64,000 nt of DNA from NCBI RefSeq assembly GCF_003226535.1, contig NZ_QKOB01000010.1, positions 1 to 64,000 on the forward strand, in the 5' to 3' direction. The position numbers and the translations under genes were made by a program. The stretch is from Meiothermus sp. Pnk-1. GTDB taxonomy: Bacteria; Deinococcota; Deinococci; Deinococcales; Thermaceae. The notes under the pieces were generated by a model, which searched no databases, was not told the origin of the DNA, and saw only the letters and a program-made list of their open reading frames with translations. Below, piece after piece: positions 17,659 through 60,471 of this stretch (positions are counted from its first letter, which is position 1; each line of letters begins with the position of its first letter).

Positions 17659-17669
17659 AGAAACCTCCG

Positions 17670-17816
17670 TTAGCGGAATGCCCAGCTGAAGATCAGCATC
17701 ACCAGCCCAATCGACCCGAATATCAGCAGCACCGGTAACAGCAACACCTGATAGGCCGCGATCACCAAGGCCAAGAAGTCCTTCCAATCCGGCTTGATCT
17801 CGGGTTCGGGGTTCAT
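17670..17816 (-). CDS. 48-residue single-pass membrane peptide upstream of mutase
   Basis: ATG 17816 opens [20 protein letters not shown], followed by a long hydrophobic run (about residues 16-45, [18 protein letters not shown] and onward) that can cross the membrane once or fold as a hairpin, ending WAFR. It stops 11 bp before the mutase start and is co-directional, so the two are probably co-transcribed. No family recognised. An acidic N terminus followed by a hydrophobic helix, in a codon-biased frame, is the evidence that it is real. Confidence 0.6.
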
Positions 17817-17924
17817 GGCTTTAGTGTACCGCTAAGCCCTCGAGAACGTTCTCTGGCAGAGAGCGATCCACGGCGTTTTGCGTACGGCGTAAGCGCCGGA
17901 AATCAGTTATCGGCGCGCTTAGCT

Positions 17925-17980
17925 TTATAGTGTTAGTCATATTACCGCAAAAGTTTATAGTAACATGATAGGCTTATAGT
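17925..17980 (+). promoter_or_regulatory. Triple TTATAGT repeat upstream of hxlR-type gene
   Basis: TTATAGT occurs at 17925-17931, 17955-17961 and 17974-17980, in an AT-rich pocket just before the ATG at 17985. The last copy also serves as a -10 box 4 bp from the start codon. The other two copies, 30 and 49 bp upstream, may be binding sites for the regulator itself. Confidence 0.5.
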
Positions 17981-17984
17981 AGTT

Positions 17985-18329
17985 ATGGACCACGATACTC
18001 TTACACGCGCGATCTTGCGGGCGGTTTCCCGTCAAGCGGGCTGGGAAATCCTGCTGGCTTTACGCCAAGGTCCCACCCGCTTTAGCGAGCTCGAGGAAGG
18101 CACCCAGGTGAGCCCCCGCACGCTTTCGGAGCGGTTGCGCGAGCTGGTGGAGCTGGGGCTGGTTGGACGAAGAGCTTTCGCCGAGGTTCCGCCTCGGGTC
18201 GAATACACCCTCACCCCGCTAGGGCTCAAGTTGCTGGAGGCCTTAGAGAGTCTTGAAGGTCTCCTCTTGGATTTGGATGCAGATGGGTCACTCCCTAAAC
18301 CTAACCTTAAGTCAAGCGAGGATCAATAA
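17985..18329 (+). CDS. HxlR-family winged-helix regulator
   Basis: 114-residue one-domain regulator. The fold is visible as GWEILLALRQGPTRFSELEE (helices 1-2), VSPRTLSERLRELVELGLV (recognition helix) and a wing RVEYTLTPLGLKLLEALESL. No cysteine is present, so it is not the redox-sensing type. Three upstream TTATAGT repeats may be its operator. It is followed by minD in the same direction after 38 bp, but minD has its own -10 box. Confidence 0.8.
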   Translation: MDHDTLTRAILRAVSRQAGWEILLALRQGPTRFSELEEGTQVSPRTLSERLRELVELGLVGRRAFAEVPPRVEYTLTPLGLKLLEALESLEGLLLDLDADGSLPKPNLKSSEDQ

Positions 18330-42330: not shown

Positions 42331-42356
42331 AACTCCCCCGGGTAGGGGGAGTTTTT
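42331..42356 (+). terminator. Terminator of the HtrA-like gene, overlapping the element junction
   Basis: AACTCCCCC and GGGGGAGTT form a 9-bp stem followed by TTT. The right arm is also the first part of the 71-bp direct repeat (42345 onwards), so the element's left junction lies within the stem. Confidence 0.7.
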
Positions 42357-42415
42357 GGTGCCGGGAACAGGACTTGAACCTGCACACCCGTAGGGGTACA
42401 CGACCCTGAATCGTG
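42345..42415. repeat. Left attachment site (attL), 71-bp direct repeat
   Basis: Identical to 60374-60444. From 42356 to 42415 it is the last 60 nt of tRNA-Leu(CAG) with CCA (minus strand), cut off at the anticodon stem, where the sequence changes from ACGCG-type tRNA to ACATG. This is the original chromosomal 3' end left behind by integration. Confidence 0.92.
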
Positions 42416-42511: not shown

Positions 42512-42539
42512 TTGCTGTACCGGCGCAGCTCTTTATACA
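42512..42539 (+). promoter_or_regulatory. Promoter of the element clamp gene
   Basis: TTGCTG (42512-42517), 16-bp spacer, TATACA (42534-42539), then a short leader with CGGAGAA before the ATG at 42560. A run of ATG-proximal TATAC boxes is a feature shared by many element genes. Confidence 0.5.
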
Positions 42540-42559
42540 CTAAACATCGGAGAACTACT

Positions 42560-43636
42560 ATGCCGAATGCCAGAATCTCCCTACCCAAAGCCAAACTATC
42601 CGCCGTACTAGGCCACCTGGCCAAAATCCCCGCCTCGCTGTCGATGACCACCATCCAGACGTCCCCCGATGGGCTGTGGCTATACCAGAGCGGGCATGGG
42701 CTGGACGTTCAGCTCTGCTTCCCGGAGGCCCGCACCGAATCGCGGGTGACTACCTCTGTCAACACTGCGGCGCTCGCCCAGATGGTGAGTGTAGCGCCGG
42801 GCGAGGCCGTCGAGGTCGAGGTGGGGCCATCCGGCCTCAAGTTTGGGACTGGCGGGTATCGAGCGAGCCTCAACGGGCTCATCGTCGATTACGATGAGCC
42901 CCCCATTGAAGCCGAGGGCGGCGTCGTGGTCCCCATCGCCGAGCTGGGGCGGGCCATCCGCTGCGTGCGCCATGCCGTGGGCGGTGTGAACCGGCCCCAT
43001 TTCCGGGGGGTGCAGCTAGAGTTCTCCCCCGGCAACCTGCGGGCGGTGGCCTCGGATGGCTACCGCCTGGCCCGCTACGACCTGGGCGTGGATGGCCCGC
43101 TGAACGGGAAAGCCATGCTCCCGCTGAAGCCCCTGGATGCTGCTTTGGGCATCCTATCCACCCAGGATGGGGCGGCCACCCTTCAGCTCCACGGCGGGCG
43201 TCTGGCCGTCATCGGGGAGGCGGTGCGCCTGGCGCTCACCCCGATGGGGCAGGGGCTGCCCAACGTTGAGAACGCCATCCCCAAGAGCTATGTGGCCGAG
43301 GCCATCGTGGACCCCAGGGCGCTGATCCAGGCTATCCGGCGCGTTTCCCTGCTCTCGCCGCAGGACAACCGCCGGATCGATCTGAGCTTTTCCGAGCAGC
43401 GCCTGGAGGTTCGTGGCGCTGGGGACTACGGCGAGGGGCGGGATGAGGTTCCGCTGGACACCTACCGGGGCGAGCCGCTGGCCCTATCGCTGAACGCGGT
43501 GTACCTCTACGATGCCCTCTCCTGCATCGAGGGCATGGCCCGGATCAAAATATCCGACCCGAGGAGCCCGATTGCGGTGGAGGCGCTGGAGGATGCGAGG
43601 TATCTGGGGGTGATAGCCCCAATCCTCAACCCCTGA
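42560..43636 (+). CDS. Element-encoded DNA polymerase III beta clamp homologue
   Basis: 358 residues, a full three-domain sliding clamp. ARISLPKAKLSAVLGHLAKI at the N terminus, RPHFRGVQLEFSPGNLRAVASDGYRLARYDL (given here only as landmark parts FRGVQLEF and ASDGYRLAR) in the middle domain and LSLNAVYLYDALSCIEG near the C terminus match DnaN. It is clearly divergent from normal chromosomal clamps and lacks the common C-terminal MPxR/L ending. It may recruit the host polymerase to element DNA or replace the host clamp. First gene at the left end, closed by a strong hairpin. Confidence 0.82.
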   Translation: MPNARISLPKAKLSAVLGHLAKIPASLSMTTIQTSPDGLWLYQSGHGLDVQLCFPEARTESRVTTSVNTAALAQMVSVAPGEAVEVEVGPSGLKFGTGGYRASLNGLIVDYDEPPIEAEGGVVVPIAELGRAIRCVRHAVGGVNRPHFRGVQLEFSPGNLRAVASDGYRLARYDLGVDGPLNGKAMLPLKPLDAALGILSTQDGAATLQLHGGRLAVIGEAVRLALTPMGQGLPNVENAIPKSYVAEAIVDPRALIQAIRRVSLLSPQDNRRIDLSFSEQRLEVRGAGDYGEGRDEVPLDTYRGEPLALSLNAVYLYDALSCIEGMARIKISDPRSPIAVEALEDARYLGVIAPILNP

Positions 43637-44511: not shown

Positions 44512-44742
44512 ATGGAGGCTACGCTGGATAACGAACTGAAGCGTTCGGGGACATTCCCCTGCCCACTCTGCGGCGGGGAACGCACCGTATCCTCTCGCCA
44601 CGCGAAAAAGGTTACGGGGGAGGATGGGATGCCGGGGGTGCTCCGGCGGGGGCGGCGTTGCCTGGAGTGTGGGGCCAGGTGGGCCACGCTGGAGCTGGTG
44701 GTGGTGGGGAGCGTCGTCCGGGATGGGCGCGTCGTCCTCTGA
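44512..44742 (+). CDS. Small zinc-ribbon protein
   Basis: 76 residues with two Cys pairs, CPLCGG (about 17-22) and CLECG (about 50-54), the arrangement of a zinc ribbon like those of NrdR or phage Ogr-type activators. Basic between the pairs. Likely DNA- or RNA-binding, perhaps an activator of the genes that follow. The first gene of the rightward block. Confidence 0.65.
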   Translation: MEATLDNELKRSGTFPCPLCGGERTVSSRHAKKVTGEDGMPGVLRRGRRCLECGARWATLELVVVGSVVRDGRVVL

Positions 44743-44752
44743 GGGGGTAGCG

Positions 44753-45307
44753 GTGCTGGCGTTTTATCTGCTTTCCCCGATGCGGGTCGCGCTATATGCC
44801 TATCCGGCGGGCGATATAGAGGTGTACGCCTCGGAATCGCCCTATGTCCCGGAGGGCCTGGTCGTCCAGATGGCGAAGGCCCTGCTGCGCCCGCCCGCCC
44901 CGCTGGATGAGAACGCCTCAAGCGGCGGAACGCTCCGGGCCAGCGTACAGATGGCGCGGCCCTCGGGCTGGATTTTCCGCTACGCCGAGCGCGATCTGCT
45001 GCTCCCCCAAAGCGGCTACTTGGCGGCGCTGAACGAGATGGCGACCAAGGATCGGATAACGATCCGGGAGTGGTTCGAGCGGAGCAGGCGGGTCGTACTG
45101 GTGCGCCTGGAGGATGGGCGGGAGGTGCCGCTTTCCCAGCTCACCCCAGGAGAGGCGGCCATAGCGACGAACCATCGGGCTCGCTGGCAGCACCCGCCGC
45201 TGTTTTTCTATGGCGGCCCCACCGAGTACGGGCTGTCGTTCATGCGCCTGGCCGCCCGGTTGTTCCCGGAGTACGCCACGCGCAAGACGGTGCGCCGGGT
45301 GGCCTGA
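44753..45307 (+). CDS. Hypothetical protein of the element
   Basis: 184 residues from a GTG at 44753 with GAGGGGG 4-5 nt upstream; ATG 44723 is an alternative that would overlap the previous gene. It opens with a hydrophobic segment (LAFYLLSPMRVALYAYPAGD) and ends basic (FPEYATRKTVRRVA). No family recognised. 11 bp before the first KGREGY-module gene, so probably the same transcript. Confidence 0.55.
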   Translation: MLAFYLLSPMRVALYAYPAGDIEVYASESPYVPEGLVVQMAKALLRPPAPLDENASSGGTLRASVQMARPSGWIFRYAERDLLLPQSGYLAALNEMATKDRITIREWFERSRRVVLVRLEDGREVPLSQLTPGEAAIATNHRARWQHPPLFFYGGPTEYGLSFMRLAARLFPEYATRKTVRRVA

Positions 45308-45318
45308 AAGGAGGCGCG

Positions 45319-47139
45319 ATGCTGGAGGAGCTGGAGAAGCTGCGTTCGTTTGTCCGTCGGATCAAGATCAAAGGGCGCGAGGGCTATGTGCTCAAGCCCT
45401 CGAAGGAAAATCCCAGGGTCAAGCGCTGGATGCGCCTGCCCGAGTCGTCCGGGCAGACTAAGCCGCAAGGGCGGGCTGACGTGGAGCTATTCCCCTCCAA
45501 GCGCTACAACCCCGCCACAGATACCCTGGTGGAGGAGCAGGCGCTGTTCCCGCTCCCCGACCCCACCCCGGAGCAGATGGCGCGCTCCCGGCTCAAGTAT
45601 CTGGGCCTGGACCTGGAGACCGGGCAACTGCCCCCCTTCGACCTCATGGACGGCAAGGAAAAGCGTGAACTGGGGCGCGTTGTCGGGCCGCTGCTTCACC
45701 GTTCCCAGTTTGACCTTGAAAGCCTGGAAGACCTCGACGGGGAAGAGGAGTTCTGGGAGGGCGTGGCCGAGGGGATGGATATAGATGAGCGCTACAGATT
45801 ATTCAATCTGCTAGACGACCAATCCATGCGCGATGCGGCACGGGCGATGCTGGCCGATTTGGACGCCGAGAAAGCCTTCCGCATGGCCTTCGACGATATA
45901 GTTTCCAGGGTGGGAGATAGCCTGTCCGCCGCCGATAAGGCGGCAGAGCTACTCCACCCCTACTACGGGGGCGAACTCGATGCCGTAGTAAACGCTTTAC
46001 TGGAGAAGAATAGCAGCGACGGCGGGCTCGTGGACGATAGCCAGTACGACGAGCGCGCCAGGGCGATGCGCGAGAGCCCGTGGGCGGACGCGGTGCTGGG
46101 GGCAAAGGGCAACTCCAGCGAGGAGCGCATTCAGTCGCTGTCCACGCCCGAGACGTGGGAAAAGGCGGTGGAGGTGTCCCGCACGTCTGCTCGGGGGCGG
46201 GGGCTGTCGCGCGTTCAGGCAATGTATGAAAAGCTGCATCCCGCAGATCAAGCTATGGTGCGGGAAAAACTGGCTACCTACTGGGTGCGCTCCGCCGAGG
46301 AGCCCATGTTTGACGTGGTGCAGCCAGCCAGCCGGGCCGACTCGCTGCTGCTAAAGGACAAATACGAGCCCCGTCCGGCGGACGGCCTTGGGGACCGGCG
46401 CATCGAGATCGAAAACAACCTAGGGATTGGCCGCGTCACCTACGGCGTGCTGGCCTATCCGGGGATGGCCCCCGGCTACCTGGACGGGCGTTCGTCGCCC
46501 GAGTACCTGCTAGATCGCCACACGATGGAGGCGGGCAACTACATTTTTGGCAAGCCAAACGGTCACACCGCGCCAGAACCGCTGCACCTGCGCTTCCGCA
46601 TCCCCGAGCTGGACCGGCGCTCCCTGTCGTACTCGGATGATGACTCGTATTACTATGGCGGGTACTCCCCCTTCGGGGAGGCGAACATCACCGCCTCGCT
46701 GGCCAACCTGTATCGGATGATGGTAGACGGCGATTCGCCGTCTGCGCTCTACGATCTCAACCCCTCGTACCTGGAGCTGCACCATCCGGGGCCGATTGAC
46801 ATGGAGTATTTGCGCGAGGTATGGGTGCCGCTGCTGAGCGAAGGTTCCTTGCGGCGCGGCGAGGTGAACCCGCGCGACCTGATCCGGCAACAGCAGCAAG
46901 AGCTGGGCTTGCTGTACCAAGCCCTGCAACCCATCTCCGAGAGGGACAATCCGCCCGAAATCTATCTCTACAACCCCCAGCTCGGCTTCAGCGATGTGGA
47001 AGGCAAGAGCGCCGATGACAGCCGGGTGCGCGATTTTGCGGCGCGGCTGCGCGACGAGGTTGCCGCCGCGTCGTTTATGCCCAAAAATATCCGGCTGTGG
47101 CTGCCTGCTAGACTCAGGGAGGAGGTGGAAAGGCTGTGA
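45319..47139 (+). CDS. KGREGY-module protein 1, possible ADP-ribosyltransferase-like domain
   Basis: 606 residues. Residues 14-42 are the shared module (IKIKGREGYVLKPSK, then KRWMRLP). The middle is helical and acidic. Residues about 335-510 resemble ADP-ribosyltransferase-like (DUF3626-type) domains found at the ends of some phage head proteins: a strand YGVLAYPGMAPGYLDG, LHLRFRIPELDRRSLSY, and YLELHHPGPIDMEYLREVWV with a Glu near the place of the catalytic one. This resemblance is by eye and moderate. ATG behind AAGGAGG. Followed by a coupled small protein (GTGA overlap). Confidence 0.6.
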   Translation: MLEELEKLRSFVRRIKIKGREGYVLKPSKENPRVKRWMRLPESSGQTKPQGRADVELFPSKRYNPATDTLVEEQALFPLPDPTPEQMARSRLKYLGLDLETGQLPPFDLMDGKEKRELGRVVGPLLHRSQFDLESLEDLDGEEEFWEGVAEGMDIDERYRLFNLLDDQSMRDAARAMLADLDAEKAFRMAFDDIVSRVGDSLSAADKAAELLHPYYGGELDAVVNALLEKNSSDGGLVDDSQYDERARAMRESPWADAVLGAKGNSSEERIQSLSTPETWEKAVEVSRTSARGRGLSRVQAMYEKLHPADQAMVREKLATYWVRSAEEPMFDVVQPASRADSLLLKDKYEPRPADGLGDRRIEIENNLGIGRVTYGVLAYPGMAPGYLDGRSSPEYLLDRHTMEAGNYIFGKPNGHTAPEPLHLRFRIPELDRRSLSYSDDDSYYYGGYSPFGEANITASLANLYRMMVDGDSPSALYDLNPSYLELHHPGPIDMEYLREVWVPLLSEGSLRRGEVNPRDLIRQQQQELGLLYQALQPISERDNPPEIYLYNPQLGFSDVEGKSADDSRVRDFAARLRDEVAAASFMPKNIRLWLPARLREEVERL

Positions 47140-47612
47140 CCTACGATGAATACGTGGAGAAGTACGGGGCCGACGGCTACGTGAAGCCGTTTTCGGCTAG
47201 CGAAGCGGCCAACCCCGAGGAGCTGGCGCGTCAGGTGGCCGCCGGGCGGCTGGCGGCGTTTACCATTCCCAGGCAAGAAGAGGGGAAGCTGATGAGCGGC
47301 GCGCTGATGTGGTGCCCGCACATCGCGGGCTACCCGTGGTGGTTCGCGGGCATAGCCTGGGAGCAGGCCCCCGATCTTCCCCCGCTTGAGGATTTGTACA
47401 AGAACTTGCGGCTCAGCCCCGAGGCCGCCGCCAAGCTGCCCGCCTACCGCGTTGTAGGGGTCGGAATGGGGGCTCAGGCCCCGCTGATAGCCCACTACCT
47501 CCACCGCGCGTACTTACAGAGCTACTACTGGCTGACCGATCCCAAGGTCATCTATACAGCCAGGACGCCCTGGGACCCTACAGAGGGCTTGCGCCGCAAG
47601 AAGGATGGTTAG
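47136..47612 (+). CDS. Small partner protein of KGREGY protein 1
   Basis: 158 residues; starts with GTG overlapping the stop of the upstream gene, so it is translated with it. Aromatic-rich (MWCPHIAGYPWWFAGIAW), no membrane helix, no family recognised. By position it could be an immunity protein, chaperone or second subunit. It overlaps the next gene by 8 bp. Confidence 0.6.
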   Translation: MTYDEYVEKYGADGYVKPFSASEAANPEELARQVAAGRLAAFTIPRQEEGKLMSGALMWCPHIAGYPWWFAGIAWEQAPDLPPLEDLYKNLRLSPEAAAKLPAYRVVGVGMGAQAPLIAHYLHRAYLQSYYWLTDPKVIYTARTPWDPTEGLRRKKDG

Positions 47613-48549
47613 CGTGGCCGACACCCCTCGTACCGTTTCCTACGCTCGCATCCTGATCAAGGGGCGCGAGGGGTACGCCCTGCTGCCCTCCAAGGCCGAC
47701 CCCCGCAAGCGGCGCTGGCAAAAGCTCCCCAAAGCCGATCAGTCAGCCGGGACGACTAAGCCAAAGGGGTTCGGCTCGCTGGCCCTGCCCGGCTGGGAGC
47801 GCCGCCTTCCCGAGCGACTGCCCTTCGAGCGCTTCGGCAACCTGAGCAAGGGGGAGATGGGGCGTAGGGGGCCGGTGCTGCTGGCCGAGGTCGAGGGATC
47901 GCGGGAGGGGGAGCGCTGGGTGCTGAAGCCCTCCAACGAGGGCGCGGCGGCCAACGAGATCATCGCCAGCGTGGTGGGGCGCAGCCTGGGCCTCAACGTG
48001 CCCCCGGCCATCGTGGTCGAAAAGGAGGCTGATCTGCTGGCGGGCTCGCTGTACGTGCCCGAGCTGCGCCACGTGGCCTCCTTCAACGTCCGCAACCAAC
48101 TCATCTTCGGCCCCGATGGCCCCGAGGACATCCCCAACTACTGGCCGCAGGCGGCCCTGGGCAAGATGCTGGGCGACATAGACCGCAAGGGTGGCAACTG
48201 GGGGGTGGCCCCCGACGGCCAGCGCTGGGACTTCGACTTCTCGCTGAGCGAGGGGGCCAGCAAGTTCGTCGCCCCGGATACCCCGGACTGGAACCGCCAG
48301 CGGCTGATCGATTTCCGGGAGGCCATCGAGTGGGGACGCTCAAAACTCAGCCCATCGGCCTTCCGGCGCTACCTCGAACCCTTCCAGGCGATAGCGGATA
48401 CCGACCCGGAAAAGCTCTACGGCTGGGCCGGGAGGGTGGGGGATTTGGGCGGGCTTTTCCTGGGCAAAGGCCCTCTCGGCCCTTCTCTCATCAAGGCCGG
48501 GCACGCCAACCGCAAGGCCGTGCAGGCCGCACTCCAGGAGGCGCGATGA
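47605..48549 (+). CDS. KGREGY-module protein 2, HipA/PI-kinase-like domain
   Basis: 314 residues. The module is at 15-42 (ILIKGREGYALLPSK, RKRRWQKLP). From about 60 the protein looks like a small kinase fold of the HipA/PI3-4-kinase type: K108 in RWVLKPS (nucleotide lysine), E118 in ANEIIASVVGRSLGLNVP, then GDIDRKGGNWGV (189-201, D191/D193 and N198 as catalytic-loop residues) and DFDFSL (209-214, metal-binding Asp). All key residues seem present, so activity is plausible. Substrate unknown. Followed by two coupled small proteins. Confidence 0.65.
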   Translation: MVSVADTPRTVSYARILIKGREGYALLPSKADPRKRRWQKLPKADQSAGTTKPKGFGSLALPGWERRLPERLPFERFGNLSKGEMGRRGPVLLAEVEGSREGERWVLKPSNEGAAANEIIASVVGRSLGLNVPPAIVVEKEADLLAGSLYVPELRHVASFNVRNQLIFGPDGPEDIPNYWPQAALGKMLGDIDRKGGNWGVAPDGQRWDFDFSLSEGASKFVAPDTPDWNRQRLIDFREAIEWGRSKLSPSAFRRYLEPFQAIADTDPEKLYGWAGRVGDLGGLFLGKGPLGPSLIKAGHANRKAVQAALQEAR

Positions 48550-48833
48550 TCCGTTTTGCCCTCAACCTGATCGCCCCCGACCGCATGAACACTCACGGCA
48601 TCGGGGTGTACGGCACCGAGGTGGTGCCGGGCTGGGAGTTCCCCCAGGCGTGGCTGGAAGCTGCAAAAACCTATCGCCCCGATCTCCCTGAGCACCTGAG
48701 CGCGCTGGCCTGGATGCTGGCGGTGCATAGCGGTCAGATCAACGTAGGGGGGTACTATCCGGTGTGGGCGCTGGGCCGGGTGGAAGAGGCCCAGGCCCTG
48801 GTGCAGAAAGGTGGACAGGATGGCGACAAATGA
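48546..48833 (+). CDS. Small partner protein of KGREGY protein 2 (first)
   Basis: 95 residues, ATG overlapping the kinase-like gene's stop (ATGA). No family recognised. One aromatic core (HSGQINVGGYYPVWALGRVE) and an acidic tail. Position fits an immunity protein or chaperone for the kinase-like protein. The end overlaps the next gene by 14 bp. Confidence 0.6.
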   Translation: MIRFALNLIAPDRMNTHGIGVYGTEVVPGWEFPQAWLEAAKTYRPDLPEHLSALAWMLAVHSGQINVGGYYPVWALGRVEEAQALVQKGGQDGDK

Positions 48834-49071
48834 CTTTGATGGGGAGCCGCTTCGCCTGATCCGGTACGGCGGCGACAACTCGGTGTTGGCGGAGATCGAG
48901 TGGCGGGGGCCGGGAGACTACCGGGTGCTCAGCGGGCAGCTCGACGACGACGCCAAAGATGTGCTTGAGGCAGTGGGCGATATGCCTTACTACATCGATG
49001 GCTACGCCAACGTCAGCGATGCCTACGAGGGGAGGCCCTATTTCGGGTGGCCCGAGGAGGACGAAGGCTGA
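48820..49071 (+). CDS. Small acidic partner protein of KGREGY protein 2 (second)
   Basis: 83 residues, strongly acidic (DDDAKDVLEAVGDM; PEEDEG at the end), with a likely beta-rich core. The ATG at 48820 is preferred to a GTG at 48811. High acidity is common in immunity proteins and DNA mimics, but no family is recognised. Last gene of the first rightward block. Confidence 0.6.
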   Translation: MATNDFDGEPLRLIRYGGDNSVLAEIEWRGPGDYRVLSGQLDDDAKDVLEAVGDMPYYIDGYANVSDAYEGRPYFGWPEEDEG

Positions 49072-49118: not shown

Positions 49119-50816
49119 ATGTCGAAGCCGAACCGCGCTGTTTCTTACGCCCGCATCCTGATCAAAGGCCGCGAGGGGTACGCCCTGCTGCCCTCGAAGG
49201 AAAATCCCAAGGTCAAGCGCTGGATGAAGCTGGATAACAGCGCAGGTAAGGCCAGCATCAGCCCCTCTCAGCTTGAGAAGGGGTTTATGGCCTACCTGAA
49301 CGACCCGGATGCCTACCGGCAGATGCCCCCGGCCCTCACCGCCGCCCTGTTGCGCGGGGAGGCCCGGCTGCCCTACGACGTGGTGGCCCAGCTATCCCGA
49401 GCCCAGACTGCCGCGTGGCAGGGGTACGGGGGCTACCAGGATTTGATCAAGCTGATTGAGGGCGGCCAGACGGCGGCGGGGCAGTTCGGGCAGGACCACC
49501 TGGCCCTCATGGAGCACCTATCGCGGCAAAAGCGCCCGCTGCTCACCGATACCTACGACGCCTACGGGGGCGAGTTCGAGGGCTGGGCCGGGGAGGTCGA
49601 GAAGGGAGTCGAAAAGCTGGGCGGCAAGGTTTTGGGGGCCATCCCCCGCACCTCCGCGTTCGAGTGGGATTGGAACTGGGGACCGCCCGACCCCCGGCAG
49701 ATTCGCCAGGATGCAGGCGAGCGCACCATCCTGATCAACCCCGAGGCCACCCTGGTGATCGCCCCGCCCGAGGGCCGCGAGGCGGAGTTTGCGCGGGAGT
49801 ATTGGAACGGCATCGTCAAGGACGCCCCCAAGAGCGCGGAAAAGGCCAAGGCGAGCGAGCGGCTGAGCGCGATCATGCCGTCGGTGATCCCGTGGGTGAA
49901 GCGGGGACAGACGCCGCCTGGGAGAAAGGGCGAAAAATATCGAAAGGCCCTCAAAGAGCTGCAAAGTTTGCAGTCGGAAGAGGCCGCTCTGCACCGCGAG
50001 GCGTATGAGCGGGGCGAGAAACTGTCCTCGATGGCCTGGTACGAGCCCGATACCCGTGGCAACTACGCGCCGGGCGAGGGCTGGAACTGGGGCCGCCTCA
50101 CCGCCACCGAGAACGGCATCCACTACATCTCTTCCGACCTGGACGAGCCGGGGCCGCAAATCGTGGTCGGCCCCGCCGTCTCCCAGTGGATCGGCTACTC
50201 CCGCGTCGGGGCGGAAGACATCTACCGGAAGGGGGCGAAACCGAGGAGCTTCGCCCAGCCTGCTAAGCTGGAAGGCATGAACGAGGAACTGAAGCCTTTC
50301 ACCTTCCCCTACTGGGCGACCCTGATCAACTTCACCCTGGCTAACGAAGTGTGGTACGACCTGTATGGCGCTAGCAGCGGCGGCATCGACGAAAACGACG
50401 ACGCCTACGACGTGCCCTTCCGCCTGGCTAACCCCGACGGCGGGGCCTGGGTAGCGGTGTTTGCTTCCGATGCCTTCATCCCGAGCACCCCCGGCCCCTG
50501 GCGCAACGTCAGCTACAACCCCTTCCAGGTGCTGTGGGTCAACGAGCGCGGGCAGTGGGGCTACAGCAGCTACGACGACCTGAGCGCCCTGGGCGGCAGC
50601 TTGCGGAAGCTGCGGGAGGCCATTCGCCCGGTCAGCGAGTTCCCGGAGTTCAAGATGCCCCCGGCGCTGGATGCGGTGCTGCGGGCCAACGCCGAGCACG
50701 GCTGGCCCCTGGAGCGGCTGGTGGCCCTGGCTCGGGGCGAGGTCACGGTGGACAACCCGACCTTGAAGCTGTGGAGCGAGGAGGGGAACCCCGAACTCTT
50801 GAAGCGGAAGAAATAG
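49119..50816 (+). CDS. KGREGY-module protein 3, unknown domain
   Basis: 565 residues. Residues 12-38 are the shared module (RILIKGREGYALLPSK, then VKRWMKL), nearly identical to protein 2 at its start and to protein 1 at its end (ENPxVKRW). The rest is unrecognised: an acidic, Trp-rich middle (FEWDWNWGPPDPRQIRQDAG), a coiled coil at about 265-310 and a soluble C-terminal half ending NPELLKRKK. It has its own -10 box and is closed by a terminator. Confidence 0.6.
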   Translation: MSKPNRAVSYARILIKGREGYALLPSKENPKVKRWMKLDNSAGKASISPSQLEKGFMAYLNDPDAYRQMPPALTAALLRGEARLPYDVVAQLSRAQTAAWQGYGGYQDLIKLIEGGQTAAGQFGQDHLALMEHLSRQKRPLLTDTYDAYGGEFEGWAGEVEKGVEKLGGKVLGAIPRTSAFEWDWNWGPPDPRQIRQDAGERTILINPEATLVIAPPEGREAEFAREYWNGIVKDAPKSAEKAKASERLSAIMPSVIPWVKRGQTPPGRKGEKYRKALKELQSLQSEEAALHREAYERGEKLSSMAWYEPDTRGNYAPGEGWNWGRLTATENGIHYISSDLDEPGPQIVVGPAVSQWIGYSRVGAEDIYRKGAKPRSFAQPAKLEGMNEELKPFTFPYWATLINFTLANEVWYDLYGASSGGIDENDDAYDVPFRLANPDGGAWVAVFASDAFIPSTPGPWRNVSYNPFQVLWVNERGQWGYSSYDDLSALGGSLRKLREAIRPVSEFPEFKMPPALDAVLRANAEHGWPLERLVALARGEVTVDNPTLKLWSEEGNPELLKRKK

Positions 50817-50876: not shown

Positions 50877-51224
50877 ATGGACGAGAACGATATTAGCCCG
50901 CTGGCCCTCAAGCTGGCCGAGCTGCTGCTGCTGGCCGCGCAGTTGCCGGATCAAGAAGACCAAGCGGAGCAGGAACAAGACGAGGGCGGAGCAGACGTGG
51001 CCCCGCCCAACACCACGTTTGAGTGCCCCTGCTGCGGAGGGCTGGTGGAGGCCAGCGAGGCCCTGCCCAACCCGGTCACGCCGGTACTGGTAGGCACCTG
51101 CCCGCAGGGGAACGCGGCGCTGGCTATCCCCGCGACCAACTATGCGGTTTGCCGGGATGGGGGCGGGGAGCTGATTGTCTTCGACGCCGGAGGTGACGAT
51201 GCCGCGTCCGATGGTGCGGGATAA
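50877..51224 (+). CDS. Small acidic protein with a Cys cluster
   Basis: 115 residues. N-terminal helix rich in Leu then Asp/Glu/Gln (LLLLAAQLPDQEDQAEQEQD), a CPCCGG motif (about residues 50-55) and two further cysteines (TCPQG, VCRDG) that could complete a zinc site, and an acidic tail. No family recognised. AAAGGAGCG precedes the ATG. It overlaps the next gene by 26 bp. Confidence 0.6.
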   Translation: MDENDISPLALKLAELLLLAAQLPDQEDQAEQEQDEGGADVAPPNTTFECPCCGGLVEASEALPNPVTPVLVGTCPQGNAALAIPATNYAVCRDGGGELIVFDAGGDDAASDGAG

Positions 51225-51708
51225 CGGCGATGGGACGGTGGACGTGCTGGGGCATCCGATCTGGAGTACCGGCACTTTCTTCGGGCATGGCAGCCCCCGA
51301 GAGGGCGACACCTTCAGCGCCGACGACCTGGAACAGATCGCAACGGATATGCGGGAGCTGGAGGACGAGCTGGACCCCAGGCTCTACGCCGGGCACCCCC
51401 TCCACCCCATCCTGAAGTTCCTGGCCCGCCCCAAAGGGCGGGTGCGCAACTTCCGGCGGGAGGGGAACTTCCTGCTGGCCGATTTCCTGGGCGTCCCCCG
51501 CTCGTTCTGGGAGCAGATCAGCCAGGATCAGGCCCGCTTCAGCCCGGACATGATGGTGGGCTACACGTCCCGGCGCACCGGCAAGCGCTACCCCTGGGTG
51601 GTGACCGGGCTCGGGGCGCTGGGGGCGGTGCTCCCGGCCAATACGCTGCTGCCCCCGGCGGGGGCCGAGTACCACTACTACGGGGCCTCGGCCTTCCCCT
51701 CGGTCTGA
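51199..51708 (+). CDS. Mu-I-like head protease or scaffold protein
   Basis: 169 residues resembling the phage Mu gpI-type protease/scaffold family: FSADDLEQIATDMRELEDEL, YAGHPLHPILKFLARPKGRV, FRREGNFLLADFLGVP, FSPDMMVGYTSRRTGK and LGALGAVLPANTLLPP follow that family's order (GHP, R-REG-L-ADF, SP, LGA-PA). In Mu-like phages this protein processes the head. It is the only structural-type gene I see in the element. Start ATG 51199 behind GGAGGTG. It runs 31 bp into the convergent parB-like gene. Confidence 0.6.
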   Translation: MPRPMVRDNGDGTVDVLGHPIWSTGTFFGHGSPREGDTFSADDLEQIATDMRELEDELDPRLYAGHPLHPILKFLARPKGRVRNFRREGNFLLADFLGVPRSFWEQISQDQARFSPDMMVGYTSRRTGKRYPWVVTGLGALGAVLPANTLLPPAGAEYHYYGASAFPSV

Positions 51709-52139
51709 TTGCGGATGCGCCAGTAGATGGCCGCAGCGGCCTTGAGCAGGTCGCCGCCGTGCTCGGCGCGCAAAAAGCCGCGCACCCGCTCCTCCCCCAA
51801 CCGGGCGAGGGTGCGATCCAAAATCGCCCGCGCCAGCTCGGGGGGGGAGAACGCCTTGCGCCCGAGGTTTTCCGCGATCTCGATCTCGCGGGCCTCGTCG
51901 TCCCCCATCGCGCGGGCGATGGCCGGGGCGCTATCCAGCCCGGCGGCTCGGGCGGCCAGGAAGCGGCGGCGGCCCGCCACCACCTCGTAGCCCCTCGCCG
52001 TGGGACGCACGATCAGGGGCACCCGTATCCCCTCGGCGCGCACCGATTCCACCAGTTCCGGCTCCGGCTCGTCCTTGAGCCGGTAGCTGTGGGCGATATA
52101 CAACCGGTCCAGCGGGATTAGCTCGACGTTCGCTAGCAT
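51678..52139 (-). CDS. ParB-like nuclease/partition-domain protein
   Basis: 153 residues, only the N-terminal ParB/Srx domain and a short helical tail. IPLDRLYIAHSYRLKDEPEP, GIRVPLIVRPTARGYEVVAG, RRRFLAARAAG and IEIAENLGRKAFSPPELARA are the CTP-binding/ParB motifs (GRRR, ENxxR). It lacks the long HTH and dimer domains of chromosomal ParB, and no parA is near. It may be a regulator or a single-stranded-DNA-binding protein rather than a segregation factor. Divergent from the initiator gene. Confidence 0.8.
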   Translation of the reverse strand: MLANVELIPLDRLYIAHSYRLKDEPEPELVESVRAEGIRVPLIVRPTARGYEVVAGRRRFLAARAAGLDSAPAIARAMGDDEAREIEIAENLGRKAFSPPELARAILDRTLARLGEERVRGFLRAEHGGDLLKAAAAIYWRIRNQTEGKAEAP

Positions 52140-52161: not shown

Positions 52162-52190
52162 TTGTGCATACCAAGATTTACTCTGTGGGT

Positions 52191-53867
52191 ATGGTTGACT
52201 TGAAAACGATCAGCCCCGCTGAGGCCAAGGTGTGGCTGTACGTCGCCCTGGGCCACGATCCGAGCGTCAAGGCGCACGTGGCCCGCACCCTACGCCTCTC
52301 CCGGCCCACGGTGATCAAGGCCATGAGCAAGCTGTCCGGGCTGCCGGTGGTCGCCCGCCCCCGTCTGTCGCGGCTGCTCCCCTACATGCCCCCCACGGCG
52401 GCCAAGTTGGCCCTGTGGCTGCACTTGGGCGGGCGGATCGATGACCTCAAGGGGGTGGCGGCGGAGGCGGGGATGTGCCACAAGTCTGTGCGCGCCGCTC
52501 TCCGGTGGCTGGTCGAGCAGGGGCTGGTCGAAGAGGAAGGGGCCTCGGGATTTTTTTTGACGGGGGGTGTAAACCCCATTCCCGTGGCGTCAAAAGTTGA
52601 CACCCCCGTCAAACCCATTCCCCTGCCCAATCTCGCCCCTGCCGCTGGTAGCCGGAGCGGCGGCGCGGGCGCGGGGAGGGGGGGAGCGCGGAATGGGGGG
52701 GAGGGGATTGCTGCCTCGCCCGGATTTTACAGGGAGGGCGTCAATCCTATTCCGGTAGCTGTCAACCTTATTCAAGGGGGTGTAAATCCCAATCCCATCG
52801 AGGTGAGAATCGCTGTCCCCGACGCGGTTCTCGGCTACGGGAACCGTTTTGACAGCACCGGAGTGGGGGTTTATCCCGTCTACAACGGCATTTCGGTGGG
52901 ATTTTTGCTCTCACCGGCGCATTGGGATTGGGATTATATATCTAATACCAGTAATACTAATACCAGTAATACAGATTCACCTAGGAGTGTATTAGGGAGA
53001 GATAGGGATAGTGGAGTAAAGGATAGGGGGGTGTGGGGGGAAAGGAATGAGGAGGAAGGGAAAGAGAGGGTTGCCCCCGCCGCCGTGGACCTGCCCTCAG
53101 CGGCGGCCCCTGCTGAAGCTCAGGGGGCCGTTCTCATGAGAGGCGATAAAACGGCTTTTACGCCCTCCGATTGCCCTGACTCGACACTCAGTACACCTGG
53201 AACCTCAGAGGCGCTTCCCGACCGGCTACAGTCGCTTCCAGGGGGTGGCGCTGGGGGGGAGCTGGACATGTGGTGGCTCAGCGCCGAGTCGGCCTCGGTC
53301 AACCCGGTAGAGGCCATCCGGCAGTTGCAGATTTGGCGCTACCGGGAGCTTTGCGGTAAGGAACCGGATGCGGGGCTCCAGGACCGTTACGGGCGGGACG
53401 CTTTCGCCATCTTGCGCTGGCTCAAAATCAAGCGGCGGCGCTACTCCTGGCTGCTGGATTTCGTTTCCTGGAGCAACGAGAACGATTTTTGGAGCGGCAG
53501 GGAGCCCAGCAAGGACGGCAGGCGCTATAAATCCTGGCCCTACCTGCTGCAACTGCTTCACACCCAGGCGGTGGAGCAGTTTGACAGGGCGTCAAGCCAA
53601 GCCCCCGGCCCGGCCATGAGCGAGGCCATGGAGCGTCAACGCGCCCGCCTCAAGGAGCAGGCCCGGAGCTACCAGCCTGGACAGATGTTCCGCACCCCGG
53701 AGGGGCAGTACGCCCGCGTTGATCGCATTGCGGGGCAGTGGATCATCCTCGATGTGGGCTCCCTCGACGAGATCGGCAACCCCATCGGGAAGGGGCACCG
53801 CGAGCGGGCAGTGACCGCCGACGACCTGGCCCGGATGACCCCGGTTGACGGTGTACTTGACCGCTAG
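52191..53867 (+). CDS. Replication initiator-like protein with origin in its gene
   Basis: 558 residues (GTG 52164 would add nine). N-terminal tandem winged-helix-like part (about 1-125: LKTISPAEAKVWLYVALGHD, LRLSRPTVIKAMSKL, MCHKSVRAALRWLVEQGLVEE). A long low-complexity linker (about 130-370, with GVNPIPV repeats), then a C-terminal domain (DMWWLSAESASVNPVEAIR; RDAFAILRWLKIKRRRYSWL) of the DnaD/O-protein kind that could recruit helicase. The linker DNA carries iterons and an AT-rich block. DnaB is encoded two genes downstream. Initiator role is inferred. Confidence 0.7.
   Translation: MVDLKTISPAEAKVWLYVALGHDPSVKAHVARTLRLSRPTVIKAMSKLSGLPVVARPRLSRLLPYMPPTAAKLALWLHLGGRIDDLKGVAAEAGMCHKSVRAALRWLVEQGLVEEEGASGFFLTGGVNPIPVASKVDTPVKPIPLPNLAPAAGSRSGGAGAGRGGARNGGEGIAASPGFYREGVNPIPVAVNLIQGGVNPNPIEVRIAVPDAVLGYGNRFDSTGVGVYPVYNGISVGFLLSPAHWDWDYISNTSNTNTSNTDSPRSVLGRDRDSGVKDRGVWGERNEEEGKERVAPAAVDLPSAAAPAEAQGAVLMRGDKTAFTPSDCPDSTLSTPGTSEALPDRLQSLPGGGAGGELDMWWLSAESASVNPVEAIRQLQIWRYRELCGKEPDAGLQDRYGRDAFAILRWLKIKRRRYSWLLDFVSWSNENDFWSGREPSKDGRRYKSWPYLLQLLHTQAVEQFDRASSQAPGPAMSEAMERQRARLKEQARSYQPGQMFRTPEGQYARVDRIAGQWIILDVGSLDEIGNPIGKGHRERAVTADDLARMTPVDGVLDR
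52567..52796 (+). repeat. Iterons (probable origin) inside the initiator gene
   Basis: Two groups of about three related ~15-17-bp repeats, spaced 19-22 bp apart: near 52567 (GTGTAAACCCCATTCCC), 52589 (GTCAAAAGTTGACAC), 52608 (GTCAAACCCATTCCC), and 52740 (GTCAATCCTATTCCG), 52761 (GTCAACCTTATTCAA), 52780 (GTGTAAATCCCAATCCC). The spacing of two helical turns is typical of initiator-binding iterons. An inverted copy (GGGATTGGGATT) is at 52923. Confidence 0.7.
52921..53000 (+). other. AT-rich block, probable DNA-unwinding element
   Basis: An AT-rich stretch in an otherwise very GC-rich gene, including two perfect tandem 15-bp copies of TAATACCAGTAATAC (52943-52957 and 52958-52972) and GGATTATATATC before them. 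It lies about 125 bp after the last iteron, as expected for the melting region of a lambda-type origin. Confidence 0.65.
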
Positions 53868-53884: not shown

Positions 53885-54514
53885 ATGATTGAGATGCAAA
53901 AAGCTGAGACGGCGGGAACGCTAATCACCGTGGCCTGCGACCACCAGTTTCACCTGTTCCGGCTGAGCCTCGAACCCGAGGCGTTCCGGGCCTGCAAGTG
54001 CCCGGAGCTGGCGCTGCGGGCGGGGGACGCTTACCTCCGCCGGGCGCTCGACCCCCGGCAGTCGATCTTGTCCAGCATCTCCCTGATGCTCGGTGAGCTG
54101 TTGGAGGCCGTGCCCGAGAACAACAGCAAGGAGTTTTGGGTGGCCCCGTACCGCTCAAAAATCGGCCTCGCCCTCTACGACTTGGTGGATGGCGAGGGGA
54201 ACCCCCCCGTTCAGCGGGGCTGGGCAGGGCTGATCCTCCCCCAGGAGGGGCGGCAGCTCCTGGGCGAGGGGGCATATGCCGTCTACCAGGGCGGCGTAGC
54301 CCTGATAGACATCCTCATTTCGCTGGGCCGAGCGATCCTGATCGGGATCATCACGGAGGGGCTCCGGCGGGCGGGGAAGCTGGAGGGCCTGGGCGGCCTC
54401 GATTTTGAGAAAATCAGACTGGAGTCCATTCAGAACGCTGCCGTGGCGATGGTCCTGGGCTACCATGAGGACGCCCTGACGATACTCAGGCTGGGGGATT
54501 TGGAGGTGTCCTGA
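53885..54514 (+). CDS. Hypothetical protein upstream of dnaB
   Basis: 209 residues, mixed alpha/beta start (TLITVACDHQFHLFRLSLEP) with a CKCPE motif and a hydrophobic helix near the middle (GGVALIDILISLGRAILIGI). No family recognised. ATG 53894 is an alternative start. It overlaps the dnaB start by one base, so it is co-translated with the helicase; a helicase loader or regulator is possible on position alone. Confidence 0.55.
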   Translation: MIEMQKAETAGTLITVACDHQFHLFRLSLEPEAFRACKCPELALRAGDAYLRRALDPRQSILSSISLMLGELLEAVPENNSKEFWVAPYRSKIGLALYDLVDGEGNPPVQRGWAGLILPQEGRQLLGEGAYAVYQGGVALIDILISLGRAILIGIITEGLRRAGKLEGLGGLDFEKIRLESIQNAAVAMVLGYHEDALTILRLGDLEVS

Positions 54515-55791
54515 TGCAGGCGCAGCTCTCTTTACCGGCATCCCCAGCCGCCGAGCGCAACCTGGTGGGGGCGGTGCTGCTCGACGCCACGGCGCTGGAT
54601 GCTGCCCTGAGCGCCGGAGTCGTCCCGGACGACTTCAGCGAGGTGCCCCTGCGCCGGGCCTGGGAGGCCATTCTAGCCGCCTTCCACGGCGGTCAACCCC
54701 TCACCCCGGTGGTGCTGGGGGGGCTGGGGGCCGATCCGGCCCTGCTCATGGAGCTGATGGCCGCCACCGCCGGGGCTGCGGCCTGGGCGGATAGCTACGC
54801 CCGGATGGTGCGGGATGCCGCTGAGCGGCGGCGGCTGATTCAGCTAGCCCTCAAGGCCGCCTCGGAGGCGGCCTCGGAGGCCCCCCTGGATGCAGTCTGG
54901 GCAAAGCTGCTCGACGCTCGGGCCAACGCCGGGAGCGCCGGGCAGCTCAAAACCTTCGCCGAGATGGCCGAGGGCCTGCTGGAGGCCCTGATGTCGGGGG
55001 AGTCGGGCGGGATGCCGACCGGCTTCCCCACCCTCGACCGCCTCTCGGGGGCCGGGGGGCTGTACCGCGACCTCAACATCCTGGCCGCCCGGCCTAGCCA
55101 GGGCAAAACCCAGGCCGCCTTGCAGATCATCGAGCACGTGGCCGAGCAGGGGGCGAGCGTGCTGTTCATCAACATGGACACCCCCGAGGAGCAGATACGC
55201 CGCCGACAGGTGGCCTACCGCCTGGGGATGACGGCCAACGATCTGCGCGAGGGTATCCGCAATAACCCGGCGATCCTCCAGCGGGCTAAGGCCGCCATCG
55301 AGGAGCTGAAACGGCTCCCCATCCACTACCGCTGTGGCCCCACCAGCATCCTGGACGTGCGCCTGGCCGCCCGGCAGTTGCGGGCCAGGGGCGACCTGGG
55401 CCTCATCGTGGTGGACTACTTGCAACAGGTATCCACCGGGAACGACCGGCACGACGAGTTTGAGCGAGTGACCATCGTCTCCCGCTCGCTCAAGGATTTG
55501 GCGAGCGAGCTGGAGGTGCCGGTGCTGGCCCTCTCGCAGCTCTCGCGGGGAACCGAGAGCCGCAACGACAAGCGGCCCAAGCTCTCCGACCTCCGGCAGT
55601 CGGGCCAGGTCGAGCAGGACGCGGCGATGGTGATCGCCCTCTACCGCCCTCACTACTACGACCGGGAGGCCAATCCCAACGAGGCGGAGTGGCTGCTACT
55701 CAAGCAAAAAGATGGCCCGGTGGGGACGATCCACATGCGGTACAACCCAGGCACCGGGTTCGGCGATGTGGGCGAGTTTTCCGAGAACTAG
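54514..55791 (+). CDS. dnaB: Replicative DNA helicase DnaB
   Basis: 425-residue hexameric helicase of the DnaB family. A short N-terminal domain (SPAAERNLVGAVLLDATALD; about 1-110) and the RecA-like motor: RDLNILAARPSQGKTQAAL (Walker A), INMDTPEEQIRRRQVA (H1a-type Glu), LIVVDYLQQ (Walker B, H2) and LSQLSRGTESRNDKRPKLSDLRQSG (H3, given only in outline), QDAAMVIALYRP (H4). Start ATG overlaps the previous stop, behind GGAGGTG. Its presence means that the element recruits its own helicase. Confidence 0.93.
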   Translation: MQAQLSLPASPAAERNLVGAVLLDATALDAALSAGVVPDDFSEVPLRRAWEAILAAFHGGQPLTPVVLGGLGADPALLMELMAATAGAAAWADSYARMVRDAAERRRLIQLALKAASEAASEAPLDAVWAKLLDARANAGSAGQLKTFAEMAEGLLEALMSGESGGMPTGFPTLDRLSGAGGLYRDLNILAARPSQGKTQAALQIIEHVAEQGASVLFINMDTPEEQIRRRQVAYRLGMTANDLREGIRNNPAILQRAKAAIEELKRLPIHYRCGPTSILDVRLAARQLRARGDLGLIVVDYLQQVSTGNDRHDEFERVTIVSRSLKDLASELEVPVLALSQLSRGTESRNDKRPKLSDLRQSGQVEQDAAMVIALYRPHYYDREANPNEAEWLLLKQKDGPVGTIHMRYNPGTGFGDVGEFSEN

Positions 55792-58636: not shown

Positions 58637-59323
58637 ATGGCAGGGAAAACGCTCAACGAACTGCTCGGCAACCTACAAGCCCCGTTCGCCGAGGTGGACT
58701 GGAAGGTCCAGTCCACCACCAAGGACAAATCGCGGGGCCAGGTGGTGCCCTACATCGACGCCCGCTCGGTGGCGGAGCGGCTTGACGAGGCGGTCGGCCC
58801 CGAGGGCTGGCAGGACAGCTACGACATCCTCCTGGCCCAGGGGGACAGCTTCGTGGTGCGCTGCCGCCTGAGCGTGTTGGGGGTATCCAAGGAAGACGTA
58901 GGCGAGGGCGATAGCCTCAAAGCCGCTTTCTCCGATGCCCTGAAGCGCGCGGCGGTGAAGTTCGGGGTAGGGCGCTACCTGTACCGGATGCCCGACGTCT
59001 GGGTCGAGATCGAGGAGGGGCGCTTCATTCCCCGCTCGACCGTCCGGGCGCTGGACGCCGCCTACCGCCGCTTCATCGAGACGGGGGAGTGGCGGTTGGA
59101 CGCTGCCCCCGCCAAGGCCCCAGCGGCTGAGCCCGCCGTCGCCAAGGCCGCCCCCGCTGCCCCTGCTGCCCCCGCCAAGTCGTCCAACGGCAACGATCTG
59201 GCGCGGCTCAAGGGGGAACTCGCGGCCCTGGCCCGGCAGGGGGCCAAGCTCCCGGCGGGGTGGGAGCGGGTGGCCGACGCGGAGGTGTTGCGGCGCTTAG
59301 TGGAGCGGCACAAGGCCAACTAG
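58637..59323 (+). CDS. Rad52/DdrA-family strand-annealing protein
   Basis: 228 residues. The N-terminal ~150 match the Rad52/Rad22/DdrA fold: FAEVDWKVQSTTKDKSRGQV, YIDARSVAERLDEAVGPEGW, GDSLKAAFSDALKRAAVKFG and VGRYLY. A low-complexity Ala/Pro/Lys linker and a short helical C-terminal domain follow. Proteins of this kind anneal complementary strands and protect ends; phage versions drive recombination-dependent replication. DdrA itself is a Deinococcus repair protein, so a phylum-level link is possible. Strong promoter before and a terminator after. Confidence 0.82.
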   Translation: MAGKTLNELLGNLQAPFAEVDWKVQSTTKDKSRGQVVPYIDARSVAERLDEAVGPEGWQDSYDILLAQGDSFVVRCRLSVLGVSKEDVGEGDSLKAAFSDALKRAAVKFGVGRYLYRMPDVWVEIEEGRFIPRSTVRALDAAYRRFIETGEWRLDAAPAKAPAAEPAVAKAAPAAPAAPAKSSNGNDLARLKGELAALARQGAKLPAGWERVADAEVLRRLVERHKAN

Positions 59324-59377: not shown

Positions 59378-60295
59378 TTACTCCATCCGGCGGAATCCCG
59401 GAGAGGCGCGGGTATGCACGGCCTTGAGGTTGGGGTCTCTCATCTGGGCGTAGTGCAGGGTCATGTACGGGCTCTCGTGGCCCAGAATGCGCTGGGCCGT
59501 GGCTACGTCCCCGCCCATCGTCAGCAGCTCGACGACAAAGCCCCGGCGGAAGGCGTGGACGCTCAGGCGGGGGAGGTTGGCCCGCTCGCATAGCCTGTGA
59601 ATGAGCCGCAGCACCCCGTGCCGGTCGAGGGGCCGCTTGCCGTCGGCTACGAACACCTGCTCGAAGGGGGCCTCGCGGTATTCGGGGCGCTCGCGGCGCA
59701 AATAGGCGTTGACCATGCGCATCACCTGCGGGTCCACCGGCACCAGCCGCTCCTTCCCACGCTTGCCCCGCACCCGCACATAGCCGGGCTCAACGCGGAA
59801 ATCCTCGAAGCGCAGGGCGCATAGCTCGCTGACCCGGAGCCCGGTGTTGAAGAGCAGGCCGAGGATGGCCTGGTCGCGCAGGGGGTGCCGGGTGAGCAGG
59901 GCAGCCTTCATCAGCGCCTTGAAGTCGTCGTAGCCGACCACCGGCAGGACTGGTTTCTCTCGCGGCGGGAACTTGAAGCTTTTGAAGGGGGTTGCCTCGA
60001 TGAACTCGTTGGCCGCCAGGTGGCCGAAGAAAGCGCGGAGCCCCTTGAGGTTGGCCAGGATGCCATTGCGGCTATAGCGCGGCACGGGGCCGGTTTTGCG
60101 CCGCACCGTCAGGCCCTCCATGTACTCGACGAACAGGCGCAGGTGGTAGGGCTTGACCTGCTCGGGGTCGTGTAGCCCCTGCCCCTGCGCCCACTCGATG
60201 AACAGCCCCGCCGATTGCTGATAGAATCGGCGGGTGTTGGGGTTGCCGGTAGCGCGTAGCCAATCCTCCAGGAGGAACTGCCAGTTTGGACGCAT
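59378..60295 (-). CDS. int: Tyrosine integrase of the element
   Basis: 305 residues. An N-terminal SAM-like core-binding domain (about 1-110, WLRATGNPNTRRFYQQSAGL) and the catalytic domain: Arg in NTGLRVSELCALRFEDF, Lys in VRGKRGKERLVPVD, HxxR in HAFRRGFV, His/Trp position in ILGHES and the nucleophile Tyr in MTLHYAQ. All catalytic residues are present. ATG 60295 follows GGAGGT. It is transcribed away from the intact tRNA-Leu, so tRNA read-through could feed it. It should catalyse integration and excision at the 71-bp sites. Confidence 0.95.
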   Translation of the reverse strand: MRPNWQFLLEDWLRATGNPNTRRFYQQSAGLFIEWAQGQGLHDPEQVKPYHLRLFVEYMEGLTVRRKTGPVPRYSRNGILANLKGLRAFFGHLAANEFIEATPFKSFKFPPREKPVLPVVGYDDFKALMKAALLTRHPLRDQAILGLLFNTGLRVSELCALRFEDFRVEPGYVRVRGKRGKERLVPVDPQVMRMVNAYLRRERPEYREAPFEQVFVADGKRPLDRHGVLRLIHRLCERANLPRLSVHAFRRGFVVELLTMGGDVATAQRILGHESPYMTLHYAQMRDPNLKAVHTRASPGFRRME

Positions 60296-60373
60296 TCCTA
60301 CCTCCAGTGGTCGCGCGACCTGGCGAAGAGTGGTTACCTGACTTTTGCTCACCCCGTTGAGCTTTTGCCGTCT

Positions 60374-60444
60374 GGGGGAGTTTTTGGTGCCGGGAACAGG
60401 ACTTGAACCTGCACACCCGTAGGGGTACACGACCCTGAATCGTG
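60374..60444. repeat. Right attachment site (attR), 71-bp direct repeat
   Basis: Identical to 42345-42415. It supplies the 3' part of the intact tRNA-Leu. The flank on the left (integrase side) lacks the other arm of the HtrA terminator, showing that this side came with the element. Confidence 0.92.
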
Positions 60445-60471
60445 CGCGTCTACCAATTCCGCCATCCCGGC
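60385..60471 (-). tRNA. tRNA-Leu (anticodon CAG), CCA encoded, element target
   Basis: 87 nt with encoded CCA and the long variable arm of a class II tRNA. Acceptor GCCGGGA pairs with TCCCGGC; the anticodon stem is CACGA/TCGTG with loop TTCAGGG. Reconstituted by the element: 5' part chromosomal, 3' part from the attachment repeat. Confidence 0.95.

Follow-up and report, generated by a model that had tools for sequence, protein, structure and literature searches.

We describe a short protein module that is common to three otherwise dissimilar proteins, P1, P3 and P6, encoded by an ~18-kb integrated element of the hot-spring bacterium Meiothermus sp. Pnk-1 (contig NZ_QKOB01000010.1, positions 1 to 64,000; this whole stretch of 64,000 nucleotides is referred to as the window). 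From sequence comparisons we lean, with modest confidence, towards the view that the module is a portable tag of ~25 residues that labels the effectors carried by phages as proteins to be loaded into virions; its fold is probably a beta-hairpin. According to this hypothesis, during productive infection by the element or by a phage mobilising it, P1, P3 and P6 would enter the prohead by way of their tags, and would be injected with the DNA to exert their effects in the cell infected next. The tag would be joined to different cargos by recombination. The tag itself would bring about loading, and its receptor would be a component of the head, a role proposed on the precedent of the T-even capsid targeting sequence.

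The shared module and its distribution

The three tagged genes are all on the plus strand, and beyond the ~27 N-terminal residues that they have in common their products share nothing. The module lies within residues 12-41 of the three proteins, with the consensus RILIKGREGYALLPSKENPKVKRWMKL.

45319..47139, plus strand: P1, tagged, 606 aa, cargo unrecognised; a relative of its C-terminus is present in G003, a genome of the same family
45358..45438, plus strand: module copy 1 (in P1), RIKIKGREGYVLKPSKENPRVKRWMRL
47605..48549, plus strand: P3, module and plausible HipA-like kinase cargo, 314 aa
47647..47727, plus strand: module copy 2 (in P3), RILIKGREGYALLPSKADPRKRRWQKL
49119..50816, plus strand: P6, tagged, 565 aa
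49152..49232, plus strand: module copy 3 (in P6), RILIKGREGYALLPSKENPKVKRWMKL

Compared codon by codon across 28 codons (five before GREGY to 23 after), the copies are 79% (P1-P6), 74% (P3-P6) and 64% (P1-P3) identical in DNA. Outside the module the identity is that of background, 15-56% just upstream and 23-38% downstream, where the following 110 codons are all at this level. When a profile of the three copies was run against the 3.5-Mb host genome, only P1, P3 and P6 matched (E 1e-24 to 1e-26; next E 0.13). These results bear out a preliminary description of the window, in which a common N-terminal segment had been noted in the reading frames starting at 45319, 47605 and 49119, together with a sharp boundary between like and unlike DNA. 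The interval given there, 45319-49071, covers P1 and P3 but ends before the third protein, and the module is N-terminal in the window proteins but internal in several proteins elsewhere.

The core of the motif reads G[LY]xLxPSKx[ND]PxV[KR]RW[QM]. A profile from the window copies alone reached two IMG/VR lineages, and tblastn reached Thermus phage MN1 (LC754405), in which the module occurs twice in MN1_750, the gene immediately after the portal gene. With an enlarged profile the matches came to 21 IMG/VR contigs, sorted by eye into 11 lineages, one TA06 contig (L030) and two genomes of the same family (Thermaceae), G003 and G001, the latter belonging to the genus of the window genome. Several elements carry more than one copy: three in the window, three in consecutive genes of L030, and two each in MN1_750, L008 and L059. 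As an independent check, a degenerate DNA pattern fixing only PSKx[ND]Px[VIL][KR..]RW was run on viral contigs and on 257 Gb of genomes. It gave 15 viral matches. Fourteen of these, from 8 lineages, are in an open frame, and every one of the 14 also had the L at -2 from P and the Q/E after W, positions that the pattern had left free. In the genomes the same flanking residues accompanied two of nine matches, both on one TA06 contig.

No copy of the module was found in plasmids by tblastn, and no family in Pfam, PHROGs or the PDB covers the motif. The module is thus not part of a known unrelated domain in these libraries, and MN1 and the IMG/VR contigs place it in a phage-related context outside this locus. 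Neither the short motif nor its wide occurrence seems to be on record in the libraries searched; systems of this kind are already known.

Cargos, partner genes and neighbourhoods

The Pfam domains found on module hosts are ART-PolyVal, InPase, topoisomerase IB, ddrB-ParB, ParB, Zeta, PBECR1, LPD1, LPD3 and HD. With the HipA-like cargo included, at least eight unrelated cargo types accompany the module, many of them known polyvalent-protein domains. The module sits in linkers between domains, commonly 16-60 residues ahead of the next domain, and some hosts have several domains (L024, TopoIB and InPase; L008, PBECR1, LPD3 and WGR; L066, ddrB-ParB, PBECR1 and HD). In L008 each of the two module copies stands directly ahead of a separate domain.

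Cargos related to those of the window also occur on their own. On plasmid pMESIL01 the kinase-like cargo of P3 lacks the module; homology (59% identity) begins just past it, and a P4 homologue follows. A genome search put the break in P3 cargo homology at the same place, residue 54, and in G001 the pMESIL01 kinase gene was found at the same plasmid coordinates; from this, the host of the window element is probably closely related to Allomeiothermus silvanus. Parts of the C-terminal region of P6 (about 319-559) stand alone in eight related genomes, some of them interrupted by stops. Since two of the three window cargos are found untagged elsewhere, whole or in part, the tag is separable from its cargo, and this, together with the unrelated cargos, supports the earlier suggestion of a detachable tag with swappable cargo. 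In G003 (L015:15257-18168 onward) a related element was observed at an integrase adjoining tRNA-Arg, with the tagged form of P3 followed by P4, and with relatives of P1 and P6 that are rearranged and truncated.

Among the window cargos only that of P3 resembles a known activity, and we consider a HipA-like kinase plausible. Its catalytic pattern, RWVLKPS ... ANEIIASVVGRSLGL ... GDxDRKGGNWG ... RWDFDFSLS, is almost invariant across three homologues except for minor changes, for example KPS to KSS in the copy on the plasmid. The catalytic Lys, the Asp...Asn and the DFD-type metal-binding residues, which we take to correspond to those of HipA itself, are conserved in all three. The HipA/PI-kinase-like domain of the preliminary description is plausible as far as the catalytic pattern goes; the Pfam matches were below threshold (E about 0.3) and the PDB gave none, so that neither a significant profile match nor a fold match was obtained. 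The ADP-ribosyltransferase-like region that had been read in P1 found no support, as P1 matched nothing in Pfam, PHROGs or the PDB, ART-family profiles included. No domain was recognised in the P6 cargo by Pfam or PHROGs-type profile searches of the window proteins, and the IMG/VR search returned no close relatives of P3 or P6.

Two small genes are closely linked to the tagged ones.

47136..47612, plus strand: P2, 158 aa, 4-bp overlap with the end of P1; possible P1 partner
48546..48833, plus strand: P4, 95 aa, coupled to P3; same P3-P4 pair on pMESIL01 and in G003

A P2 homologue also comes after the P1 remnant in G003. P2 and P4 each share 4 bp with the end of a tagged gene and occur with the same partner in other genomes, an arrangement that resembles effector-immunity or toxin-antitoxin pairs, and small overlapping genes of this kind may encode partners or immunity proteins.

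At loci with identifiable neighbours (which leaves out L026, L049/L058 and L043/L051, where no neighbour was assigned), head or packaging genes (portal, terminase, major capsid protein or protease) lie near the tagged gene in nine lineages. A portal gene is near it in L008, L022, L024, L027/L068, L066 and L048, and in MN1 directly upstream; a terminase gene is near it in L044, and a head protease and a major head protein in L059, where a DarB-like antirestriction protein comes after the tagged gene. In the window, a protease-like fragment belongs to the same gene cluster as the tagged genes. The earlier view is thereby supported in its phage side too: the tagged genes are part of an element related to phages, and their relatives stand next to genes for phage heads.

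Other short recurring tags were seen in the same polyvalent proteins (L045:3696-6931, L051:5832-11668, L007, L022, L024). They have the forms VKAHxRRTxxGKxVxVxxH and KRPGxRGGxYWxDxxGxIxYG, are often near protein starts, and may be alternative loading tags. Just ahead of them (L045:3696-6931, L044:7059-8804, L007, L022) are QLxLFG motifs, which we take to resemble the bacterial sliding-clamp binding motif. In MN1 (L014:14761-15849, 16745-18205), RGYAL/RGFS-like tripeptides recur where segments of MN1_750 meet, and the protease-scaffold protein has similar ones; in both proteins they may be sites of cleavage during maturation.

The integrated element

The ~18-kb element is complete, with exact 71-bp repeats at both ends, and it is satellite-like or a cut-down prophage.

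42345..42415, no strand: attL, 71-bp sequence identical to the tRNA-Leu 3' end and flank
42512..43636, plus strand: DnaN-like sliding clamp (DNA polymerase processivity factor), PHROGs E 6e-43, related to clamps of Thermus phages (Lalka)
44624..45307, plus strand: ORF of unknown function, 5' of the tagged genes
48811..49071, plus strand: P5, small ORF, 86 aa
50841..51224, plus strand: P7, small ORF, acidic, CxxC motif
51175..51708, plus strand: head-protease-like protein, 177 aa, 53% identity to the N-terminal part of MN1_790
51678..52139, minus strand: ParB-like protein
52164..53867, plus strand: large protein before the helicase, weak helix-turn-helix-like matches; possible replication initiator
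54514..55791, plus strand: DnaB-like replicative helicase
58637..59323, plus strand: Rad52/22-family annealing protein
59378..60430, minus strand: tyrosine integrase, true start probably within the ORF
60374..60444, no strand: attR, 71-bp repeat inside the 3' part of tRNA-Leu (60385-60471, minus strand)

MN1_790 of Thermus phage MN1 is a head-protease family protein, of which the window gene is a fragment that lacks the remainder, the scaffold part. Phage satellites are elements of 7-20 kb between att repeats, with integrase and replication genes and without structural genes (PMC13376191). The window element has each of these features and fits this description by its gene content; a cut-down prophage is the alternative. 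It is like satellites and PICI-like elements (PMC13376191, PMC6092414) in its tRNA att repeats, integrase, replication genes and size, and in the absence of structural genes, and differs from them in carrying a head-protease fragment and three tagged putative effectors. A second phage region of the same genome (C3:149466-150446) has a distant portal homologue, 27% identical to that of MN1, and no module; it is a possible helper.

Alternative readings and known systems

Several observations weigh against a loading tag, and the hypothesis should be taken with some caution. Among the element proteins tested, none was recognised as a terminase, portal, capsid or tail protein, the sole head-related gene recognised being the protease-like fragment, and such an element could be a dead remnant. 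The module, N-terminal in the window, is internal in L027 (residue 1119), L066 (1133), L030 and others. The portals differ in family, that of MN1 being phrog_113 and most others phrog_12/11117/2662; as the portals of module phages are not one family, a shared portal receptor, which we had considered, is not indicated. Single-sequence AlphaFold2 models of P3 (pLDDT 34) and P6 (pLDDT 37) are too poor for use, as are the two strands formed by the module in the P6 model (pLDDT about 50).

We see a considerable, if less than even, chance that the whole element is an MN1-like prophage remnant in which the tagged proteins are fossils, which would be compatible with a loading role of the motif. The truncated head protease without its scaffold part, the lack of recognised structural genes and the degenerate relatives in G001 and G003 agree with this. 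Against it stand the perfect att repeats, the intact frames of the integrase, ParB, helicase, Rad52 and clamp genes, and a size of 18 kb that fits a phage satellite (PMC13376191). Degeneration also enters the least probable of the alternatives, in which the module is the functionless start of an ordinary family at a recombination seam, and is shared because a prophage in decay recently underwent duplication or gene conversion. In DNA the window copies are indeed very alike, the copy in G001 has a frameshift, and the locus in G003 has been rearranged; however, the window copies differ by 4-8 synonymous codons per pair, and the module has been kept over deep divergence on unrelated cargos. It occurs in 13 or more other lineages, and its free positions are conserved.

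The position of the module in linkers, often shortly before the next domain, and the arrangement in L008 could also be explained by a processing site or spacer, at which a head-maturation or host protease would cut to free cargo domains from polyproteins before or after injection. DdrB and DarA of phage P1 undergo proteolytic processing (PMC5512222), and the window element carries a head-protease-like gene. We nevertheless find this unlikely: the conserved stretch exceeds 15 residues, a length that prohead-protease sites, for example the short AXE-type motif of SPN3US (PMC5694885), do not nearly reach, the window tag is at the extreme N-terminus with little to separate, and phages of different head types have the module in common. 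Less likely again is a nucleic-acid-binding or DNA-docking handle, a basic, aromatic beta-hairpin that would hold the effector on packaged or entering DNA instead of acting as a signal specific to capsids. The conserved K/R and W residues, the many cargos that act on nucleic acids (TopoIB, ParB, PBECR1) and the clamp-like QLxLFG motifs and VKAHxRR tags of some neighbouring proteins speak for it, whereas P, S, N, P and W, almost invariant and always in the same order, are suggestive of one particular protein as partner, and the kinase, Zeta and ART cargos do not depend on DNA.

Returning to the loading tag, a bolder form of it, which we hold to be possible but doubtful, is that unrelated tailed phages select the effectors that enter their virions by a general code, the PSKxNPxVxRW hairpin, and that a satellite free of structural genes uses it to load its own effectors into helper heads. 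The choice of injected proteins is known for few phages. If a loading tag is what the module is, unknown virion-carried effectors could be found by sequence, cargo selection could be tested directly, and reporters could be tagged for loading into phage heads.

Among the closest known systems is MN1_750, which has the module twice, follows the portal gene and precedes a protease gene whose relative is in the window; its cargo is unrecognised and unrelated to the window cargos. The T-even internal proteins are diverse and common only in their capsid targeting sequence (PMC3012670), and in T4 (internal proteins and Alt; PMC3012670, PMC5694885) this is likewise a short segment on otherwise diverse injected proteins. 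The T4 sequence is 10-20 residues long, N-terminal and cleaved off, whereas our motif is different, longer and sometimes internal, as in L027, L066 and L030, and is not known to be cleaved. By position it is not a T4-type sequence, and any likeness in action would be by analogy only.

Phages and conjugative elements encode polyvalent proteins, for which packaging and injection have been predicted (Iyer et al. 2017, PMC5512222). These resemble the module hosts in many of their cargo domains (ART, InPase, ddrB-ParB, PBECR, LPDs), in their site among late or virion genes and in that prediction; a shared short motif of this kind is not described in the portions of that account on which we draw. 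The window proteins differ from them in having one cargo (plausible in P3) or none recognisable (P1, P6) instead of many domains, and in belonging to an element without structural genes. The wider hosts combine at least two disparate activities per polypeptide (L024, L008, L066) and have their genes near virion genes. Judged by domain content and context they are polyvalent proteins, so that the preliminary impression of a pattern matching no known family gives way, as far as that account goes, to a place within a class already described.

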